Below are positions 16,640 to 38,030 of a stretch of 64,000 nucleotides of DNA, one piece after another. Each line of letters opens with the position of its first letter. Position 1 is the first letter of the stretch. The notes under the pieces are model-generated. The model was not told the DNA's origin, ran no database searches, and worked only from the letters and a program-made list of their open reading frames with translations. The DNA is from Isoetes taiwanensis (Eukaryota; Streptophyta; Lycopodiopsida; Isoetales; Isoetaceae): positions 7,025,645 to 7,089,644 of the forward strand of contig JAJEKV010000062.1 in NCBI GenBank assembly GCA_021234155.1. The letters are read 5' to 3'. The translations under genes and the position numbers were made by a program.

Positions 16640-19600
16640 CGCCTTTGATTCCGGCAAGAAAAAATGCACTGGCGAAAATTTTTGTCCTCTCGTAATGTTT
16701 CTTCGGGCATTTTGGGTCTCAAATCCTCAAATTTGAAGATGCCTTTTGGATTTTCGTTAGGAGGCCTATAGTCCAAAAAGGGGGCAATATCTCATTTTCT
16801 TCGGGCATTTGATGCTCTTCGATTTTCATTAGAGGCCCAGAGTCCAAACGGGCAAAATCTCATTTTCTTCAAGCATCCAGAAGATTTCACTCCGTTTTCT
16901 CCGCGAAGCTTTTTACGCTCTGTTTTGTCGTCAAAATTATTGCTTTGTGCCTAACGGACAAGGCAACAAGTTTACTCGTTCAGCTTCTATATATGCTCGC
17001 CTTAAGTCAGATATGCAAAAATAAAGCTTAATCTCTTCGTTCAAACTAAAAGGGGCTCAAAGATTCTTCCATAAGCTTTTTATTCGACCAACAAAAGTAA
17101 CAGAGGCCCATGGTTTATGAGCTCTTGTTTAAAAATGCATGCAACAAAGACGCCTTACATCAAAAGCACCGACCGCTATCTTGAGGTATCCGCCTGCTTT
17201 TTGTTCTTCTACGTAAGTGCTTTGTAAATGCAGAGTTCGAAAGTTACACCATTGTAGACCATTTGCTTCCTTCAAAATCACCGCCCCCTTTGGGTCGGGT
17301 AAGCATACATGCAAATCAGATAAAAACGCAAAGTGTAAGCACAATTAGCACATCATCAAAATTCAGCCACATGAGAAGCCTACGCCTGGAGGTCTCAAGC
17401 TATGGCTTGGAGGTTCGGCTATGGCGGCCAGAGCGCTAAGGATCGACCACGAGGCGAAAGTGCCCGTAAAAATATTTCGTGGCAAAATAGAGGATGTCAT
17501 GGACATAACATTCTTGTTATGGTCATAACAGTTTTGGCCCAAATTGTTACTGGATATAACCTCTTAAAATAGACGGCTGGGATTTAATCCTAGGGCTAAA
17601 TGCAGAGGCCAAGGACGTTAAGGAAAAAAAACCCAATGACGATTGCTGAGGAAACTGCAAGGGCACTCCCACCCCGGTGTGGGGCCGCTCGGGTGGTGGT
17701 GGTTACTTCTTAAATGGCCAGAAAAAATTGAAAGCACAAGGCTGAAAAACCGTGATGCAAAGCATTTTTTGTTTTCTATAATCAAACAACAAGAAAAGAA
17801 TCTAAAACCATCAATGTAGAGTAGTTTTTGCGATTTGGCAATGTATAGTAGTTTTTGTGTTTTGGATCAAACAGGAAGAAAAGAAATGCTAAAGAATGGA
17901 TTTAGACATCAAAATTTTCGAGATTTGGATCAAACAGCTTCTAAAACAAATAATATTAACAGAGGGAGATGAATTCGTCCGGGGGGGGGGAGATAAGCCA
18001 AACTAGCCCAGAAAAAACAAAGTTTGAGAGCTTCAAATTAAAGAGATTTAAAATAAAAGGGTCCTGGAACTTACGTGAATGCCTTAGAATCTCTCCAGCT
18101 AGCTTTCAAAGCACAGTTTGCAATGGATTGTCTTGCTGTGACCATGAGGACCAGGGCCAGTATGGAGAAAGCCAGCCCCAAAATACGCAAAGAAAAAGGT
18201 TGCATGAATGCAGATATTTTGTCTTTTTTTCACACTGTGGTGCTATGGCACCACCAACTCTGTCTGTGTAGCTCTTCATTTTGGCCTTTGCCTCCTCCTC
18301 TCTACAAACTGCTTCTTCTTCTCTATAGAATTGCACTTACAAAACATATCATTTCTGTCATTTAAAAGCTTCAAAAGTCCAGCAGCCCCCCATGGTTCTT
18401 TTCACACTAGCTCGCCCTCAACATTTTTCGTCCTCAATTTTTTTTTTGTTCCCTTTAAAAAAAGGGCAAAAAAACTACATCAGCATTTGTATATCACCAT
18501 GGTTACCTATTATAAGTAGATATTACTTTTTACGTCATAACGATTATAAGTAGATATACTGTATATATAAAAGAAAAACATGTTTACTCAATATAATCTT
18601 TAAAGATTGTACAGTTAATTTTGTCTATCAGTCATAGACGCAACATTAATATTGCTCTACAAGTCCATGCCCTACAACTACTAAATACAAATACACAACC
18701 CCTGCCTTATCCATGCATAAAGTTCCTCAACATTCAGAAAGCAATAAAGTTTCCACCAGCAATTGTTTTCCCTTCTTTTCTGACTTTTTCTAGCCTCTTC
18801 ATTACTCGCCACAATCATTAGGGTTATTGTTCTATGTCTACAACTAGACCAAAGCTGGAGTTCCATAACAAAGTTATTGGATATTTGTTTCCTTAAATAA
18901 CGTACAAATACCTATACAAGCATGCAAAATTACACTAGACTTCAATGTGTAGATCATGTGCCAGAAGTACAAGAGCGGTGATAGCCTAGGGCTCAGCATG
19001 CAAGGAGCAGACCCTCTTCAATCACGTTATCTCTCCAATCATTTTAGAATTTTAGGTGTTGGGCTCTTTTGCAATTTACTTCTGTGAAACTATACATTAC
19101 ATTCTCGCGTCGTGTTTCTTAACTTGCAGATGATCACCATCTTAAATTCGTGGGTGAAAATATGTCAAAGCTTATAAAGGATGCAATCTAAAACATAGAA
19201 TTACAGGATTAAGAATTCAAATGGTATTTAGCTCATATAGTATTCATAGGATGATTTCAATTTTTCAAATTTGAATATCCAAACAAAAAAACTTGCTTAT
19301 TTCATATTTGCCAAATTTTCAATTTGAAGTTCCAAACTAAAGACAGACAAACTTAATTGCACATTTTGCCATAAAATCACGTGCAAAAGGAGTAAAAAGG
19401 TATCTTCTTATGTGTGCAGAATATTGCGACGTGGAGTAGCTAATGCTTTATCATTGACGACTTGCTTTATATTATTGGAACAAGAAAATAAAGTGAATAC
19501 AAGTAAGTTGCCTTGCACATCTATTCGTGCATTGTGTATCATTTCATTAATTGTTTTTGTGAATAGTAGAATTTGTGGATCAATGCCTACTAGAAAGCGA

Positions 19601-19980
19601 CTAGCTAGTTTAACCGAGAGACGTAGAGATAGACTGAGACAATATGTAGCACAGTAACAGGGGGGTTTTTGTGATTTTATACGCTTTTTGGCATGGTTTT
19701 CATATGATTTCATGGGCGTATTGCACGAGGCATACTAATCGGTACATCTAGAGTGCACCAAATTTTTGCATGGAATCTGTGCAATTTTTGTTTCATCCTC
19801 CTCAATGGTTAAGATCAGAGGGCTTACAAAGAAATCTCTCTTTTAATTCAAAAAGATCCAAGGGATTATAATAAAAGCCCTTTTCTCATGAGATTCGAGA
19901 CAACCGAAATTAGGGCACAGTTAGGGTTTGTGGAATCGATGATGGCAGCTGCTTACTTGGAGTCATGCATAGCCGATGGA
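16640..19980. other. Intergenic, no gene recognised
   Basis: Both strands were scanned. Only short open frames without motifs are present. A run of ten G (17979-17988) and A/T-rich stretches are the only landmarks. The 81-codon frame at 19412-19657 ends in a basic RKRLASLTERRRDRLRQY segment but matches nothing I recognise. Confidence 0.4.
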
Positions 19981-19987
19981 ATAGGGC

Positions 19988-20042
19988 AATCTCAGGGCCG
20001 ATTCTAACTATGGTGATCTCAGGGCCGATTCCAACTGTGGTG
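19988..20042. repeat. Short tandem duplication (about 29 bp, two copies)
   Basis: atctcagggccgattc followed by (t/c)aact(a/g)tggtg occurs twice in a row with two differences. Confidence 0.7.
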
Positions 20043-20418
20043 TTGCTAAATATTAGAAAAAACACAACATAGAAGTTCTGGAGGGTTTACAGCAAAAAAG
20101 TTTAGCAGATTTGGCTATGGCGGCCCATTTGTGTGAGGCAGATTCTGCAAAAAAAACAATGTGAATCCCTCAGGCTTTAATTCTTCCCTTTGTTCCACCC
20201 GGGTGGTCCTTCTGCAGAGTTTTTTGCAGTGTTTTTAAGCAGTTCGATCCAAGGGGGTAGGTCAGTTCCCCCGTTTTATTTTCCCATTCAGGTGTATTTC
20301 TGCTGATAAGAGCCAGGTTGGGGTTAAGTCGATCTGCCTCCTCCCGCCTCTTCCGAATGTATTAATTAGCTTCTTCTTATAAATTTGTTGAAAAAAGAAA
20401 GGAAATATAAGCAAGGAA

Positions 20419-21023
20419 ATGGAGCAATCTCCTGCTTGGGCTTCCAAAATCATACGTCTGCATTGTAAAGTATGCCGCATAGGCCACATGATTTATGAGA
20501 AGCAGTGCCTCTTGTTTAAATCCTTAATGGATTTGGCAGCTCAGTATGTGCGTTGGTGGATTGATATCTTTAAAGATGAAAGAGCTCAAAATGTGCAGAT
20601 GCAGTGGGAAGGGAATCGCTTAGTGTCTTACGGGCTGGAGATGAAATCCTGCAGAGCTGTGCTGCTAAAGACGTCAGTTTGATCATTCTAGGAAGTGCAG
20701 GTATGTATCGTGAGATTATTGATGATGTTAAAATGTATGCTCAGATGATGAACAGTCTAATCAGTAGTGTTGTTCCATCTGACAACGAACTGAGACGAAA
20801 TATTATTAATGAACTGAGGCAAAAGGTAGAATCTGATTGCAAAACTTTGCAGTCTACTCTTGCATGGGATTGTGCACAAGACAGGATTGCACTGTTAGAC
20901 TTCTTTGAGAAAGATGCTAGGACTAGATGGATGCGAAAGTATCCCACAAGTATTTCTACAGCTTTTCAATTGCTCCTTGGGTCAGAAGCAGCAAGGAGCT
21001 CTTTCGAGGACAAGGTACTTTAG
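20419..21023 (+). pseudogene. Unrecognised protein-coding fragment with frameshift
   Basis: Two overlapping frames (20419-20682 and 20604-21023) look coding. The first starts MEQSPAWASKIIRLHCKVCR and is rich in aromatic and charged residues. The second carries GDEILQSCAAKDVSLIILG and, further on, a helical Glu/Arg/Lys-rich region and EKDARTRWMRKYP. A single frame change near 20610-20640 would join them into about 200 residues. A TATA-like cttataaat lies at about 20370. I do not recognise the family. It may be a pseudogene, a gene with an unseen short intron, or a fragment carried by the Helitron nearby. Confidence 0.35.
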
Positions 21024-21239
21024 GACAAGATGCTTTTGGACTCTTCATGGGTCAGCACCGGGTAGATTTTTCTGCAGAAGTTTCTTCGGGGTCAGCTCCA
21101 ATTGTTTCAGGGTATAGTTGTAGTTATTTGCAGTGGTCGTTTGCTTAACTGACAGCTCCATTTGCTCACCAAGTTGCAATCAGATTAAAGCTGCAAGAAG
21201 TTTTATTGTGACCATTTGCTTGGCAGCGGCGTTTGTTTC

Positions 21240-21480
21240 TCAGTTGCAGCAAGAAGGCATCTTCGTCCTTGGCAGTTGAGATGGAGTCTTTGTTGCCCAA
21301 AACCTTGTTTTCAAGATTTTTGCTTTCGGTTCTTTCGTCTTTTTTTTTTATTGCATCTTCGTCCTTGCTTCCCAAAACCTTGTTTTCAAGATGTGCTTTC
21401 GGTTCCCTCCATTTTGATTGCATCTTTGTCATTGACAGTGAGATTTGAGCTTTGCTTCCCAACCCTTGTTCCTAGTTGGC
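21240..21480. repeat. Imperfect tandem repeat, about 85-95 bp, three copies
   Basis: gcatcttcgtcctt ... cccaaaaccttgttttcaag ... gctttcggttc recurs at about 21256, 21350 and 21420, the last copy being more diverged. Open frames here on both strands are by-products of the repeat. Confidence 0.7.
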
Positions 21481-21639
21481 TTTCTGGTTCTCTGTTTCGT
21501 TGCACCTTGCCCAGCAGGTTGCAAACTCGTGTGCGGATTTGTTGGCTGCGTAATCAGAGGTTCGATGCCCTCGGTTTTTTTAAGGGCAGTGACTAAACTA
21601 GAAAGACATCAATGTCTCAGCGACATCAGCAAGAGGTAT

Positions 21640-21960
21640 ATTTGCAACCTCGTCAAACATGGGATCTCAGGATATGCACAACAACAGGAAGGTTACTCTC
21701 ACGAAGATCACTCTGCTTTGCAATTCTTTGAGAACATGCAACAAGAGGGCATAATGCTAGACTAGATAACACCCTTAAAGCAGGGAGAGAACATCCATGA
21801 ACTTATTATTGGAAGGAAGTTTCAGGTCAACATTGTCCTTGGAAATAAACTTTGATAGGTGTTCCAAGTGTGCAAGCTTAGAGGATGCAGAGAGAGCTTT
21901 TTGACAAGTTGTTGGATAGAGATATAGTGTTATGGATTCATATGATTTCAGCACATACAC
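21640..21960 (+). pseudogene. PPR protein (PLS type) pseudogene fragment
   Basis: Pieces of consecutive pentatricopeptide repeats are readable in changing frames: ISGYAQQQEGYSHEDHSALQ then FFENMQQEGIMLD (up to a stop at 21763), a segment resembling the KQGxxIHELII linker repeat, CSKCASLEDAER, and FDKLLDRDIVLWIHMIS ending near 21955. The order matches PLS-type PPR proteins, which bind organellar RNA. About three repeats remain with several stops and shifts, so it is a dead fragment. No E or DYW domain follows. Confidence 0.75.
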
Positions 21961-22182
21961 ACATGAGCACTTTATGTGCCTTCACAAATGGCAAATGCTT
22001 TTATTAATAGGCCGTTGGTAGTGGAGACAAATTTTTGGAACTACCCAAGTAATGGCAAGTGTCGTTGTCATTAATTTTACTAAACTGTTGTTCATACGAC
22101 TAGGTTGTTTAACGATTTAGGCCTTTAAAGTTTATCTACGTTTGCTTTTGTTAGGGCCCGAAGGGCCCAAAATTTTTTTTAA

Positions 22183-22648
22183 TATAGCAATCAATACACA
22201 ACTATTATTAACATTATTAACACAAACCATTGCATTTAACACATTTAAATTAAAATCCCCCTTAAACCCCCTTTGGTTTGGGTGCACATTCACACGGGGG
22301 GTTACTCCGGGCAACGAGAGCTGTCGGATGGGCATATTTGCCCTTTATTCCAATATCTGGACCGTACATAGCGATTCTCGTTTGTGGGGTATGCATGTAC
22401 AAGTTTATGTATACTGTATATTAAGGTTTGCAAAATACTATAAGGTTTGAGAGAATGTACTTAATGGTGTTAATTTTGTACATGTATTGTAAATATATTT
22501 TTGGGGCTCTCGCTGCCCTACGTAACCCCCTGTGTGAATATGCACCCAAACCAAAGGGGGTTTAAGGGGGATTTTAATTTAAATGTGTTAAATGCAATGG
22601 TTTGTGTTAATAATGTTAATAATAGTTGTGTATTGATTGATATGCTAC
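22183..22648. repeat. Inverted repeat with arms of about 140 bp
   Basis: The left arm (22183-22322) and right arm (22505-22648) are inverted copies. Both contain acacaactattattaac, catttaaattaaaatccccc, aaacccccttt and ggttacg/ggttact blocks in matching order. The central 182 bases are unique. The outer end of the right arm abuts the Helitron remnant, so it may be part of that element or a separate foldback transposon. Confidence 0.8.
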
Positions 22649-22659
22649 ACGGATTGAAG

Positions 22660-25500
22660 AGGAAAGAAAAAAGAAGAGACAATGTTTTGCAAATTTATAA
22701 ATGAAGAGGATGAGAATAGAGTACGAAATAGAAAAAGGGAGCTTTATAGACAACAATTGTCTAGGCCAATAGAGGATATGCATATAGAAGATAGGAACAT
22801 GGTGTCTACTAAATTGAATACGGGCTCGACCATTAATGTAGATAGAGGTTCCCAGAATCTTAATAAACAGATTGTTGTAGATACGACGAGATTAGGCGCC
22901 ACGCAGGGTCCAGAATTAATTCATTGGCAAGCTTGTGCATGACGTATGAGTTTGGCAATAAATCGAACTTGCATGATCATGCACGTGGAAGAAGTGGTGT
23001 ACCTATTGCCAGATCCCACTACTTAACATTGAGCAAGATGGGTTTTGTTGTAATAATGGGAGATGGCAGTTGCCACGGTTAGCCCCTTTACCTCGAGCAT
23101 TAAATAACCTGTACAACATACCCGATTTTGATACAAAAGCCAAAGGTGAATAAATTATTTAGTGCGCTCGGAGTTGACGGTGGATTTGTAAACCTGGATT
23201 TTCCATCATCTGTTACGATTACAGGTGCACATACCATCGACTACTTCCTAAGGCAGACATTGGAAATCCTATGCATTGGTACATCTATGGTGAGTCACAA
23301 CGCTACATGCAGACATGAAATCAAAGGGTGCCATTCCAATGGATTGCAATTATCAGTTCAATCCTTGATCAGATAAATCCATTTATTCGAAACATCCGGA
23401 CTATGTATAGCTTACGCATGCCATTAGAATACATAACAATTGAAGGGGCAGTTGCAAGCGATGAAATTGCGGCCATTGCCAAAGTCGATAACACAGTCGA
23501 CATTAGGCCTCGAATCGCTAGTTTCTAGGTACAAAATCAAGGGGAACCAACCTTTATGAGCATTCTTGATTCTATGTATGAACCACTTCAATATCCCTTG
23601 TTTTACCTACATGGCACATTAGGCTGGGGACCTGAAAATGAGTACAATATCACGCAGTTGCAATGGTACAAGGCGAGGTTGTTGCATGAGGATCGACTCC
23701 TCCAAGTGGGCCGCCTGTGTAGGGGGTACTTGGTAGAGATGTAATCGAGGGTGGGGGATGCTCGGTTAAATTACTTCAGAAAGCCAAACTTTCGAAACAG
23801 GAGGATACAATATGATGAGAATTATTCCGAGCGGGAAAAAGATGGCCAGAATGACATAATCTTACCTGCATCATTCTTGGGGTGCAAAAGATGGTGTTCT
23901 GTACAAGTAGCGGATGCATTATCACTCTCGAGTGCAAAAGGTCGTCCTACACTATTCATCATGATGACGACAAACACAGAGTGGCCCGAGATATGAACTG
24001 CACTTAAACCTGGACAAAACACATATGACGCCCCTATAATTGTTGTTCGTTGTTTCTATGGTAGACTGCAACAACTAACGGAGTTGCTCAAAAAGTTTTT
24101 TCAGCGTATATCATACATGATGCATGTAGTAGAATTTCAAAAACAAGGATTACCTCATGCACATTCTTGCACAATCTTACCTGCATCATTCTTGGGGTGC
24201 AAAAGATGGTGTTCTGTACAAGTATCGGATGCATTAGCACTCTCGAGTGCAAAAGGTCGTCCTACGCTATTCATCATGATGACGACAAACACAGAGTGGC
24301 CCGAGATACGAACTGCATGAGGATTACCTCATGCACAATCTTATCTGCATCATTCTTGGGGTGCAAAAGATGGTGTTCTGTACAAGTAGCGGATGCATTA
24401 GCACTCTCGAGTGCAAAAGGTCGTCCTACGCTATTCATCATGATGACGACAAACACATAGTGGCCCGAGATACGAACTGCACTTAAACCTGGACAAAACA
24501 CATATGACGCCCCTATAATTATTGTTCGTTGTTTTCATGGTAGAAGACTGCAACAACTAAAGGAGTTGCTCAAAAAGTTTTTTCAGTGTATATCATACAT
24601 GATGCATGTAGTAGAATTTCAAAAATAAGGATTACCTCATGCATATCTTGTGTTACGTACGGAGCCTGAGATACCATTGGATTGCATCGATCAGAACGGG
24701 TCCACTTCTTCAAGGACAAGTTCAAAAGTTCATAATACATAGACATACAGAGAGATGCTCTCCAAATAACGCTTCCTGCTGCTATAACTTTTCTAAGCCT
24801 GTTAATCCCATAACATACCTCGATTCAAGGGGTTATGTACATTACAGAAGGAGAAATGTAGAGGACATGTAGGTCGTTCCCTATAATGCGTTATTGCTCC
24901 ATGAGTTGGATTGTCATATTACTATTGATATTGCATCTATTGTACATGTGTTTTCCTATCTCTATAGTTAAATATACAAAGGGTTCGATATTGCCAATTT
25001 TCGAAAAACCCAAGAGAGCTAATCTATGATAATATCGTCGTCAAGGAATAATTAACAGACACATCATATGTCAGAGTCTGTATTAGCAAATGTAGAACAA
25101 AGAACATGAGCAATAAGAGAAATATCTGAAAACGTACCAACAGAGCAAATCGCGAGACCACCTACTAGAAATGAGACACGAGACTATGTGGATGCACGAT
25201 ATCTTTCTGCCACAGAGGCATCGTGAAAGATAATATCCCATCACATAACGGATAAATCTCCATCCATCAACTGCCTCCCATTACACCTACAATTACAAAA
25301 TACAAATTCACTCTTGGACCGCTACTTTTTACGGCCTATAAATCCCCAGTTTGGCAATTTGATATACATCCAATACCACGAGCAATTTAGATTAAGTGCA
25401 TACAATGGAACATTTAGAGCAAGAAAGAGCAGGATACACAAAAAACAGGCGAAGCGTGTTTGCAGGGAACATATAAACAGGTACGTCCTCCTCTACGTGT
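22660..25500 (+). pseudogene. Helitron Rep/helicase (N-terminal half) pseudogene
   Basis: Despite many breaks the + strand follows the Helitron_like_N order: a basic NRKRELYRQQLS start (22705), THY-like and DQINPFIRNIRTMY (23355), a LQYPLFYLHG block with QWYKARLLHEDRLLQVGRLC (23590-23720), RLNYFRK, ILPASFLGCKRWCS, RPTLFIMMTTNTEWPEI, LKPGQNTYDAPIIVVRCF, VVEFQKQGLPHAH (the HUH catalytic motif, 24147-24164), LRTEPEIPLDCID, YRRR, VVPYNALLLHELDCHITID and DYVDARYLSATEAS (25177). This protein nicks and moves Helitrons by rolling-circle replication. The helicase half is absent. The 23860-24650 interval is a triplication. Stops throughout mean it is inactive. Confidence 0.9.
23860..24650 (+). repeat. 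Internal triplication of the Helitron Rep segment
   Basis: Three copies of the same coding segment lie head to tail: copy A about 23858-24171 (full, about 310 bp), copy B about 24172-24336 (truncated, ending after the NTEWPEI block) and copy C about 24337-24650 (full). Differences are few, so the duplication is young compared with the decay of the gene. In copy C the Gln before GLPHA is a stop and the second catalytic His codon is TAT (Tyr), whereas copy A keeps both. Confidence 0.9.
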
Positions 25501-27169: not shown

Positions 27170-27599
27170 ATTGCAAATGATTCAAGAGCAGCAGGAACGG
27201 CGTGAAAGAGCTACAGATGGCTGGACAAAAGTTAATTTGAAGAAATCTGCCCGTAATAAATTTGCTCAGTCTGCCTCTTAGGCAGCACATTCTAGTGGAG
27301 ATAGTCATGGTAGTGCACAACAGCATGCCATCATTCCCTTATCAGAGGATGAGGTACTCCGTGGAGGGCTAGAGCAGAGAGGAGGCTCTTCCTTACCACA
27401 ATCTGCACATAACATGGAGAGGGTGGAGCAGAGCGGCGGCTCCCCCCTGCCAATTGTTCCAGGACACAATGGAAGGGTGGAATAGAGAGGAGGCTCTCCC
27501 TTGCCACTTACTCGCACACGATGGGCAAACCTCTTAGATGCAGTTAATCTTCCTGGGGCCACTGAGATGGATGTGGAGGACCCTCAACTGCCCACATGA
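27170..27599 (+). pseudogene. LINE-B ORF1, C-terminal part
   Basis: In one frame the + strand reads QMIQEQQERRERATDGWTKV, a DGWTKV-type motif common in plant LINE ORF1, then a Ser/Gly/Gln-rich region with the repeated GGSxLP theme and TRTRWANLLD, ending DPQLPT and stop TGA at 27597-27599. Stops at about 27280 and 27484 interrupt it. The upstream part with RNA-binding motifs was not found, so ORF1 is probably truncated or too diverged. ORF1 would coat LINE RNA. Confidence 0.65.
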
Positions 27600-35830: not shown

Positions 35831-36273
35831 CTTAATAGCATGCTGATGCATTGTGGCATATCCATGTCACAATGTTTCATTTTGAATTGTGCTACATGTG
35901 CCCGAAAGGTAATCAACTAGAATTTATGCTAAGATTCTACAAGAAACAAGTACAAGTTTTCTTTTCTCCTTTGTTTCTTTAATTTAGTAGTTGTGTTTGC
36001 ATCCTTACTTTTCCACACTCCCCATAACGGGGCAGAGTTGTTGCTTCTTATTATGCAAGATATTGAATTGTATAGACTTGCATGAATAACATTTTTAATA
36101 AAAATGCTTATTATTATGATACAACTTCTTCGTTACTGATTATTATTTCCTCTTAATTGTAATTTGGCTTTAGTCACGGGAGAAAACATTGCACATGCCA
36201 TTTATATAAAACATTCACAAAGAACTCGCATTGGTTATAAGCATAACATAAATTTAAGTAAGTGCACAAAAGA
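35830..36273. other. Intergenic, nothing recognised
   Basis: A/T-rich. The last 65 bases are a diverged partial copy of the 111-bp repeat that follows. Confidence 0.4.
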
Positions 36274-36494
36274 GGCAATTGTGTAATTTCTTTGTACAAG
36301 ACACTCACAAACAACTCATATTGGTAGCGCATAAAGGTTGTGCCTAAATATGCCTATACTACATGCACACCCATACATAGCCAAGGCAATTGTGTAATTT
36401 ATTTGTACAAGACACTCACAAACAACTCACATTGACAGCGCATAAAGGTTGTGCCTAAATATGCCTATACTACATGCACACCCATACATAGCCT
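36274..36494. repeat. 111-bp tandem repeat, two full copies
   Basis: Copies at 36274-36384 and 36385-36494 share ggcaattgtgtaattt, gacactcacaaacaactca and cataaaggttgtgcctaaat with only a few differences. A diverged partial copy precedes them. Confidence 0.9.
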
Positions 36495-38030
36495 AACATT
36501 GTCGGGCACCTCTACCCAATAGACAACCAATGGAATAGCTAAAGCTTTTAGTTTAGGTTTAGGGTTTATAGATTTAGGTTATAGAGTTTATTATATCATC
36601 CAATTCAACAATGGAATTTTTAAGATTTATCAAATGAAAATACAACCGCTAATACCCATTAGTTCAGAATTAAAGGTGACACAACCATTAACACCCATTA
36701 GTTCATAATTAAAGGTTTAGGGATTAAAAAATAGCAGATTTAGGGTCTAATATCATTATCATCATGAATTACGAAGAACTAAGAGGGTGTAACATACATC
36801 TCATAGATCGAGTATGCAATGGTAGATATCCATGTCTTCACATCGTCTAATATATGTTTCTTAGAAAAATTGGATGGGCGTAGACATGAGTTACATGGAT
36901 GGCATGACTATGCATAATTAAAAATAACGATAAAATCATATTCTATTCTATTCTTCTTATGGAAATACAAAAAAGTAGTAAGTTTTGCAGTAAATCGAAA
37001 CATATGATTGAAACTTCATATCTCATATACTCGCCACACTGAAGTCTATGTTCCATTACCCATTCTATCTTACAGCATGCGTTCCATTATTCCTACCACG
37101 CACCCAAGGGTATTGCTCGACATATCTAAGCCAAATCTTCACATTTTCACCTAATACATCCACTTATTCTTCCACAACTATGCCCGGCATCGCCGGGCAC
37201 ACGTTTCTAGTGCTGTTGTATGTCATCATATAGATCGACATAGGGTTCACATCTAAGTGGGTGTGATAGAGTTTCTATCAGCATGTGGGAAGTAGCAGGC
37301 TGCCATATAGAGAGGGTTGCCACTGCAGTGTTGTACGCACACCTATAGGTACCGGTTGTGCTTCTCTGTCTTGTACAGGTAGACTGATTGTGTCAAAGCC
37401 ATCCAGTAGTAACAGGTGACCCCCCTCCCCCCTCCCCGGTCTTCTCTTTCCAGTGCACTCATTGAAGATTAGCGCTAGTATCCTGGCAAGTCGGATAGCA
37501 TGTGTCCTGCGTTCTCCCAAGTTTCCATAAGGAAGATAATGTTCGTATTGGCAGCAACCAAGTTCAAACTATTGCCCTTTTGACATGGGGAGCAATTCTA
37601 GGAGACGATGCATATGCACAACCCCAATTTGCTATTAGAAGTTGCAGCTGCAGATTCGGTGGATGCAACACAAGAAGGGGCTAGAGGTAGAGGCAAAGAT
37701 GCAAAGTGTGCATGCAAAGTGTGCATGCAAAGGCGTGTGAAGCAACAGAGGCGGAATGTGCGCTTGTAGTAGGTGCAAAGGCAGGGGGCATGGGTCAGCG
37801 GTTAGGGCCACAATAGGAGGGCCCACGAGAGTTTACTGGCTAAATGAGTAGCGTTTTGGCGCTTGGAAGCTTGTGATTAATAATAAACTCACTATTGATT
37901 AGATTTTGAATATTTTTCTCCATGTGTACACGCATGGGAAGTCCTTCTCTAGAGTTTTGTACATTGATTCTAGAAAAGCTACCGTATATATTTTACTTCC
38001 CACTTAAGTATTTTATTATTTATCTCCTGC
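36495..38030. other. Intergenic, nothing recognised
   Basis: It contains single telomere-like words (ggtttagggttta near 36555) and a short duplication of tgcaaagtgtgca near 37699-37730. An 80-codon minus-strand frame at 37278-37520 has no recognisable motif. Confidence 0.35.

Follow-up and report, generated by a model that had tools for sequence, protein, structure and literature searches.

In rice, slippage and unequal exchange have been described inside Helitrons, and the Mothra elements vary in their internal repeat units (PMC4683698). The Mothra repeats are non-coding blocs of a non-autonomous family, whereas the locus described here has a repeated coding segment of the Rep gene, in a single copy. 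For transposons, the repair routes that may lead to such structures have been reviewed, and tandem repeats derived from transposons can form small arrays by end joining and subsequent unequal exchange, as is proposed here (PMC9659126). Unlike those repeats, the present locus has only three units and forms no satellite. A literature search at the level of titles and abstracts revealed no published case of a triplication inside Rep, and one on plant tandem duplications arising from paired single-strand breaks yielded nothing of direct use.

The locus lies in a stretch of 64,000 nucleotides of Isoetes taiwanensis contig JAJEKV010000062.1, hereafter the window. The published assembly of this species is a Nanopore draft of 1658.30 Mb in 204 scaffolds and 909 contigs (PMC8566536), and the assembly searched in this study comprises 1,658,258,908 bases in 1110 contigs.

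Three Copies of a 315-bp Unit in a Helitron Rep Pseudogene

It was found by repeat search, TRF, and alignment that a 315-bp unit is present in three head-to-tail copies at positions 23855-24650 (Table 1), in agreement with the initial annotation, which had described three such copies of a Rep segment. The TRF score of the B/C pair is 607 against a threshold of 50, and thus a chance origin of the repeat is excluded. The end of copy B overlaps the start of copy C by a few bases. Alignment of the copies for divergence, which had been suggested along with that description, gave 12 differences in 306 sites between A and C, 6 in 160 between A and B, and 5 in 160 between B and C.

Table 1. Positions of the Helitron pieces, the repeated units, and their motifs and stop codons in the window
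Feature	Position	Strand	Remark
Upstream piece of the Helitron copy	19138-19642	+	split off by an insertion of ~3 kb, 19643-22640
Main piece of the decayed Rep gene	22641-25416	+	contains all three copies
Copy A	23855-24164	+	full length
TGA stop in copy A	23994-23996	+	upstream of GLPHAH
GLPHAH in copy A	24147-24164	+	
A/B junction	24165-24179	+	CATGCACATTCTTG-CACAATCTTACC with short filler
Copy B	24170-24338	+	151-bp internal deletion at 24317/24318
TGA stop in copy B	24318-24320	+	directly before GLPHAQ
GLPHAQ in copy B	24321-24338	+	Gln replaces the last His
Copy C	24334-24650	+	full length
First stop in copy C, TAG	24458-24460	+	
Second stop in copy C, TAA	24626-24628	+	directly before GLPHAY
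GLPHAY in copy C	24629-24646	+	Tyr replaces the last His

When stop codons were read as X, all three copies matched PF14214 (Helitron_like_N), with E values of 1e-27 for the stretch with copy A, 8.4e-8 for B, and 2.5e-21 for C. Homology to all close paralogues stops by 25416. The triplicated part had been called the catalytic segment. It is not the whole domain; the repeated unit corresponds to the C-terminal half of Helitron_like_N (about residues 82-190 of the 191 in the profile) and holds the HUH motif only.

The motif had been reported as kept in one copy, missing from the middle copy, and changed from His to Tyr in the third copy, which also has a stop. Copy A does keep GLPHAH, behind a TGA stop of its own. 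Copy B is not devoid of the motif, since it still ends in GLPHA and has lost the final His, while copy C has the Tyr residue and two stops instead of one. No intact HUH motif was therefore found in an open frame. Copy C has a 3-bp insertion (AGA), and no frame lesion is common to the three units. Since the HUH motif is both intact and open in none of the copies and the regions flanking the array carry further frameshifts, this Helitron Rep copy is a pseudogene, as originally assigned.

Occurrence of the Array in the Genome

The Helitron family is large in this genome, with 366 DNA candidates and 1813 candidates for PF14214 at a first look. I scored 40 of the 366 for unit number. A search for other Helitrons with the same triplication, also suggested at the outset, found none among the 39 other scored copies, each of which matches a single unit only. 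No second PF14214 match within 4 kb was seen among the best 150 of the 1813 candidates, which were read by eye, and the 1.66-Gb assembly has a single instance of the A/B junction. The closest scored paralogues (L031-L035) are 87-90% alike where they match, and copies A, B, and C resemble one another more than they resemble any of the other scored genomic copies. Among the copies scored, the triplication occurs only at this locus. A considerable share of the 150 best PF14214 matches have long open frames, some of more than 1000 amino acids.

Timing of the Triplication Relative to Decay

Changes were polarised against paralogues, five of them close and about two dozen more distant. Five derived changes are common to copies A, B, and C and absent in the relatives, and are thus older than the triplication. 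All five alter an amino acid, against 72-74% expected without selection, which is suggestive only but may mean that the Helitron copy was already unselected before the triplication. After the triplication, copy A gained five changes, its stop included, and copy C about nine, including both stops and the change from His to Tyr. The Arg codon before GLPHAH is CGA in the relatives and CAA, TGA, and TAA in copies A, B, and C, respectively. Thus, the CpG was present when the copies were formed and was lost later. The stops and the motif losses postdate the triplication, several of them via CpG decay.

The copies had been thought far more alike than the overall decay of the gene would suggest. This does not hold once the duplication is dated. 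The derived changes total 10/309 (3.2%) in copy A and 14/309 (4.5%) in copy C, and those derived in the window come to 39/1211 (3.2%) in the upstream flank and 31/763 (4.1%) in the downstream flank, by a stricter count. Since the totals per copy match the decay of the flanks, no special conservation is needed. The triplication falls roughly midway in the private history of this Helitron copy, and the copies are alike because they separated at about that time. Their likeness requires neither selection nor gene conversion. In a decayed transposon, the similarity among internal repeats tells when they were duplicated and is no indication of selection.

Junctions and a Possible Route to the Array

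Both inner boundaries of the array carry CACAATCTTA, whereas the outer flank carries CATAATCTTA instead. The B/C boundary is identical to the A/B one except that it lacks 10 bp between two GCACA words. The second boundary looks as if it was copied from the first, as would be expected if a single tandem duplication had grown through unequal crossing-over or slippage. The pairing of B with C is suggested by few sites, namely the common junction and one further derived base that the two copies have in common (synonymous, at 23951). Against this pairing, copies A and C both have an A at 24145, for which either gene conversion or homoplasy at a CpG would be needed.

Very probably, the array is the functionless product of a local tandem duplication, growth to three units, a deletion in B, and independent decay. 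This was one of the two explanations first offered, and it is supported by the privacy of the array to the locus, the mutual closeness of the copies, the copied boundary, and a date relative to decay that places the lesions after the duplication. The starting point would be a Helitron Rep gene copy already free of selection, in which 315 bp, a length divisible by three by chance, would have been tandemly duplicated via an illegitimate joining event, with a short filler remaining at the joint. Two units would have become three via unequal crossing-over or slippage, the first junction being copied into the second; the order of these first steps is read from few sites. The middle unit would then have lost 151 bp by a deletion at a microhomology of about 2 bp, and the three copies would have decayed independently. 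The proposed repair route follows the general behaviour of end joining. The array shows no sign of function and is ordinary genome wear.

A 9-bp perfect hairpin at the deletion point of copy B, TGCATGAGG-ATTA-CCTCATGCA, could have pointed to template switching. This reading was set aside since, given that the relatives read CGAGG, a plain deletion that joins GAACTGCAC to CGAGGATT at an AC microhomology, together with one CpG transition, produces the identical sequence. The paralogue L020/L034 was rejected as a source of copy B. Its break lies at A-position 24020, about 18 bp from the B deletion (24003), and is followed by unrelated sequence.

By inspection, each junction lies inside the Rep gene and shows neither Helitron ends nor a CTRR. 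This speaks against the other explanation first offered, in which the element was triplicated in part by slippage or re-initiation of rolling-circle replication as it transposed. In favour of this explanation, the sequence that hosts the array is itself a Helitron Rep gene, and a duplication at transposition is conceivable; however, no scored sibling has the triplication, and the five earlier changes suggest a copy that was already unselected. Rolling-circle slippage is unsupported and very unlikely.

Since each copy bears private substitutions and indels and is nearer to the other two than to the remaining scored copies, it is highly improbable that the assembly falsely expanded the locus or merged reads from paralogues into a mosaic, even though it is a Nanopore draft and was the sole basis of the assessment. 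Besides, the array of 0.8 kb is short relative to long reads.

Is the array a relic of a Rep protein that was still active when its HUH segment was multiplied in frame? The period is a multiple of three, and the absence of a common frame lesion indicates that the segment was open when copied. However, one duplication in three is in frame by chance, the earlier changes, all nonsynonymous, hint at a copy already free of selection, and no other element with such a Rep was found among the scored copies or by the junction search of the assembly. I regard this origin as most improbable, and it is scarcely conceivable that a Helitron lineage with an in-frame three-HUH Rep was active for a while and left this locus as its only surviving relic.

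Comparable Duplications

Is local tandem duplication common in these elements? A scan of paralogues (29 loci, 52.8 kb) revealed one case, the Helitron paralogue L030, in which about 410-419 bp were independently duplicated head to tail, with units 98% alike, at L030:2164-2998. Like the present array, it lies inside the same decayed coding region, but it concerns another segment (homologous to ~25007-25447 of the window), has two units, and has a step of 416 bp, which is no multiple of three. The window also holds several other short tandem duplications, and local duplication is background here. The significance of the array is mostly confined to this locus, a small and clean case where a single sequence, compared with its paralogues, reveals in what order duplication, deletion, and inactivation took place.

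Other Repeats

The insertion of about 3 kb that splits the Helitron copy has a long inverted repeat at its end (22184-22321 and 22506-22643; 138 nt, 95% complementary), and its start and its fold-back end both have relatives in the L035 locus. L035 has a tandem array of units of about 440 bp (L035:3209-4899), which ends exactly at the start of the Helitron homology. Outside the Helitron pieces, the window has a 111-bp tandem duplication with 96% identity at 36273-36525 and three 38-nt repeats with a 54-nt step at 27362-27507. Downstream of the latter, from ~27600, the sequence reads by eye like a decayed LINE-type endonuclease region.
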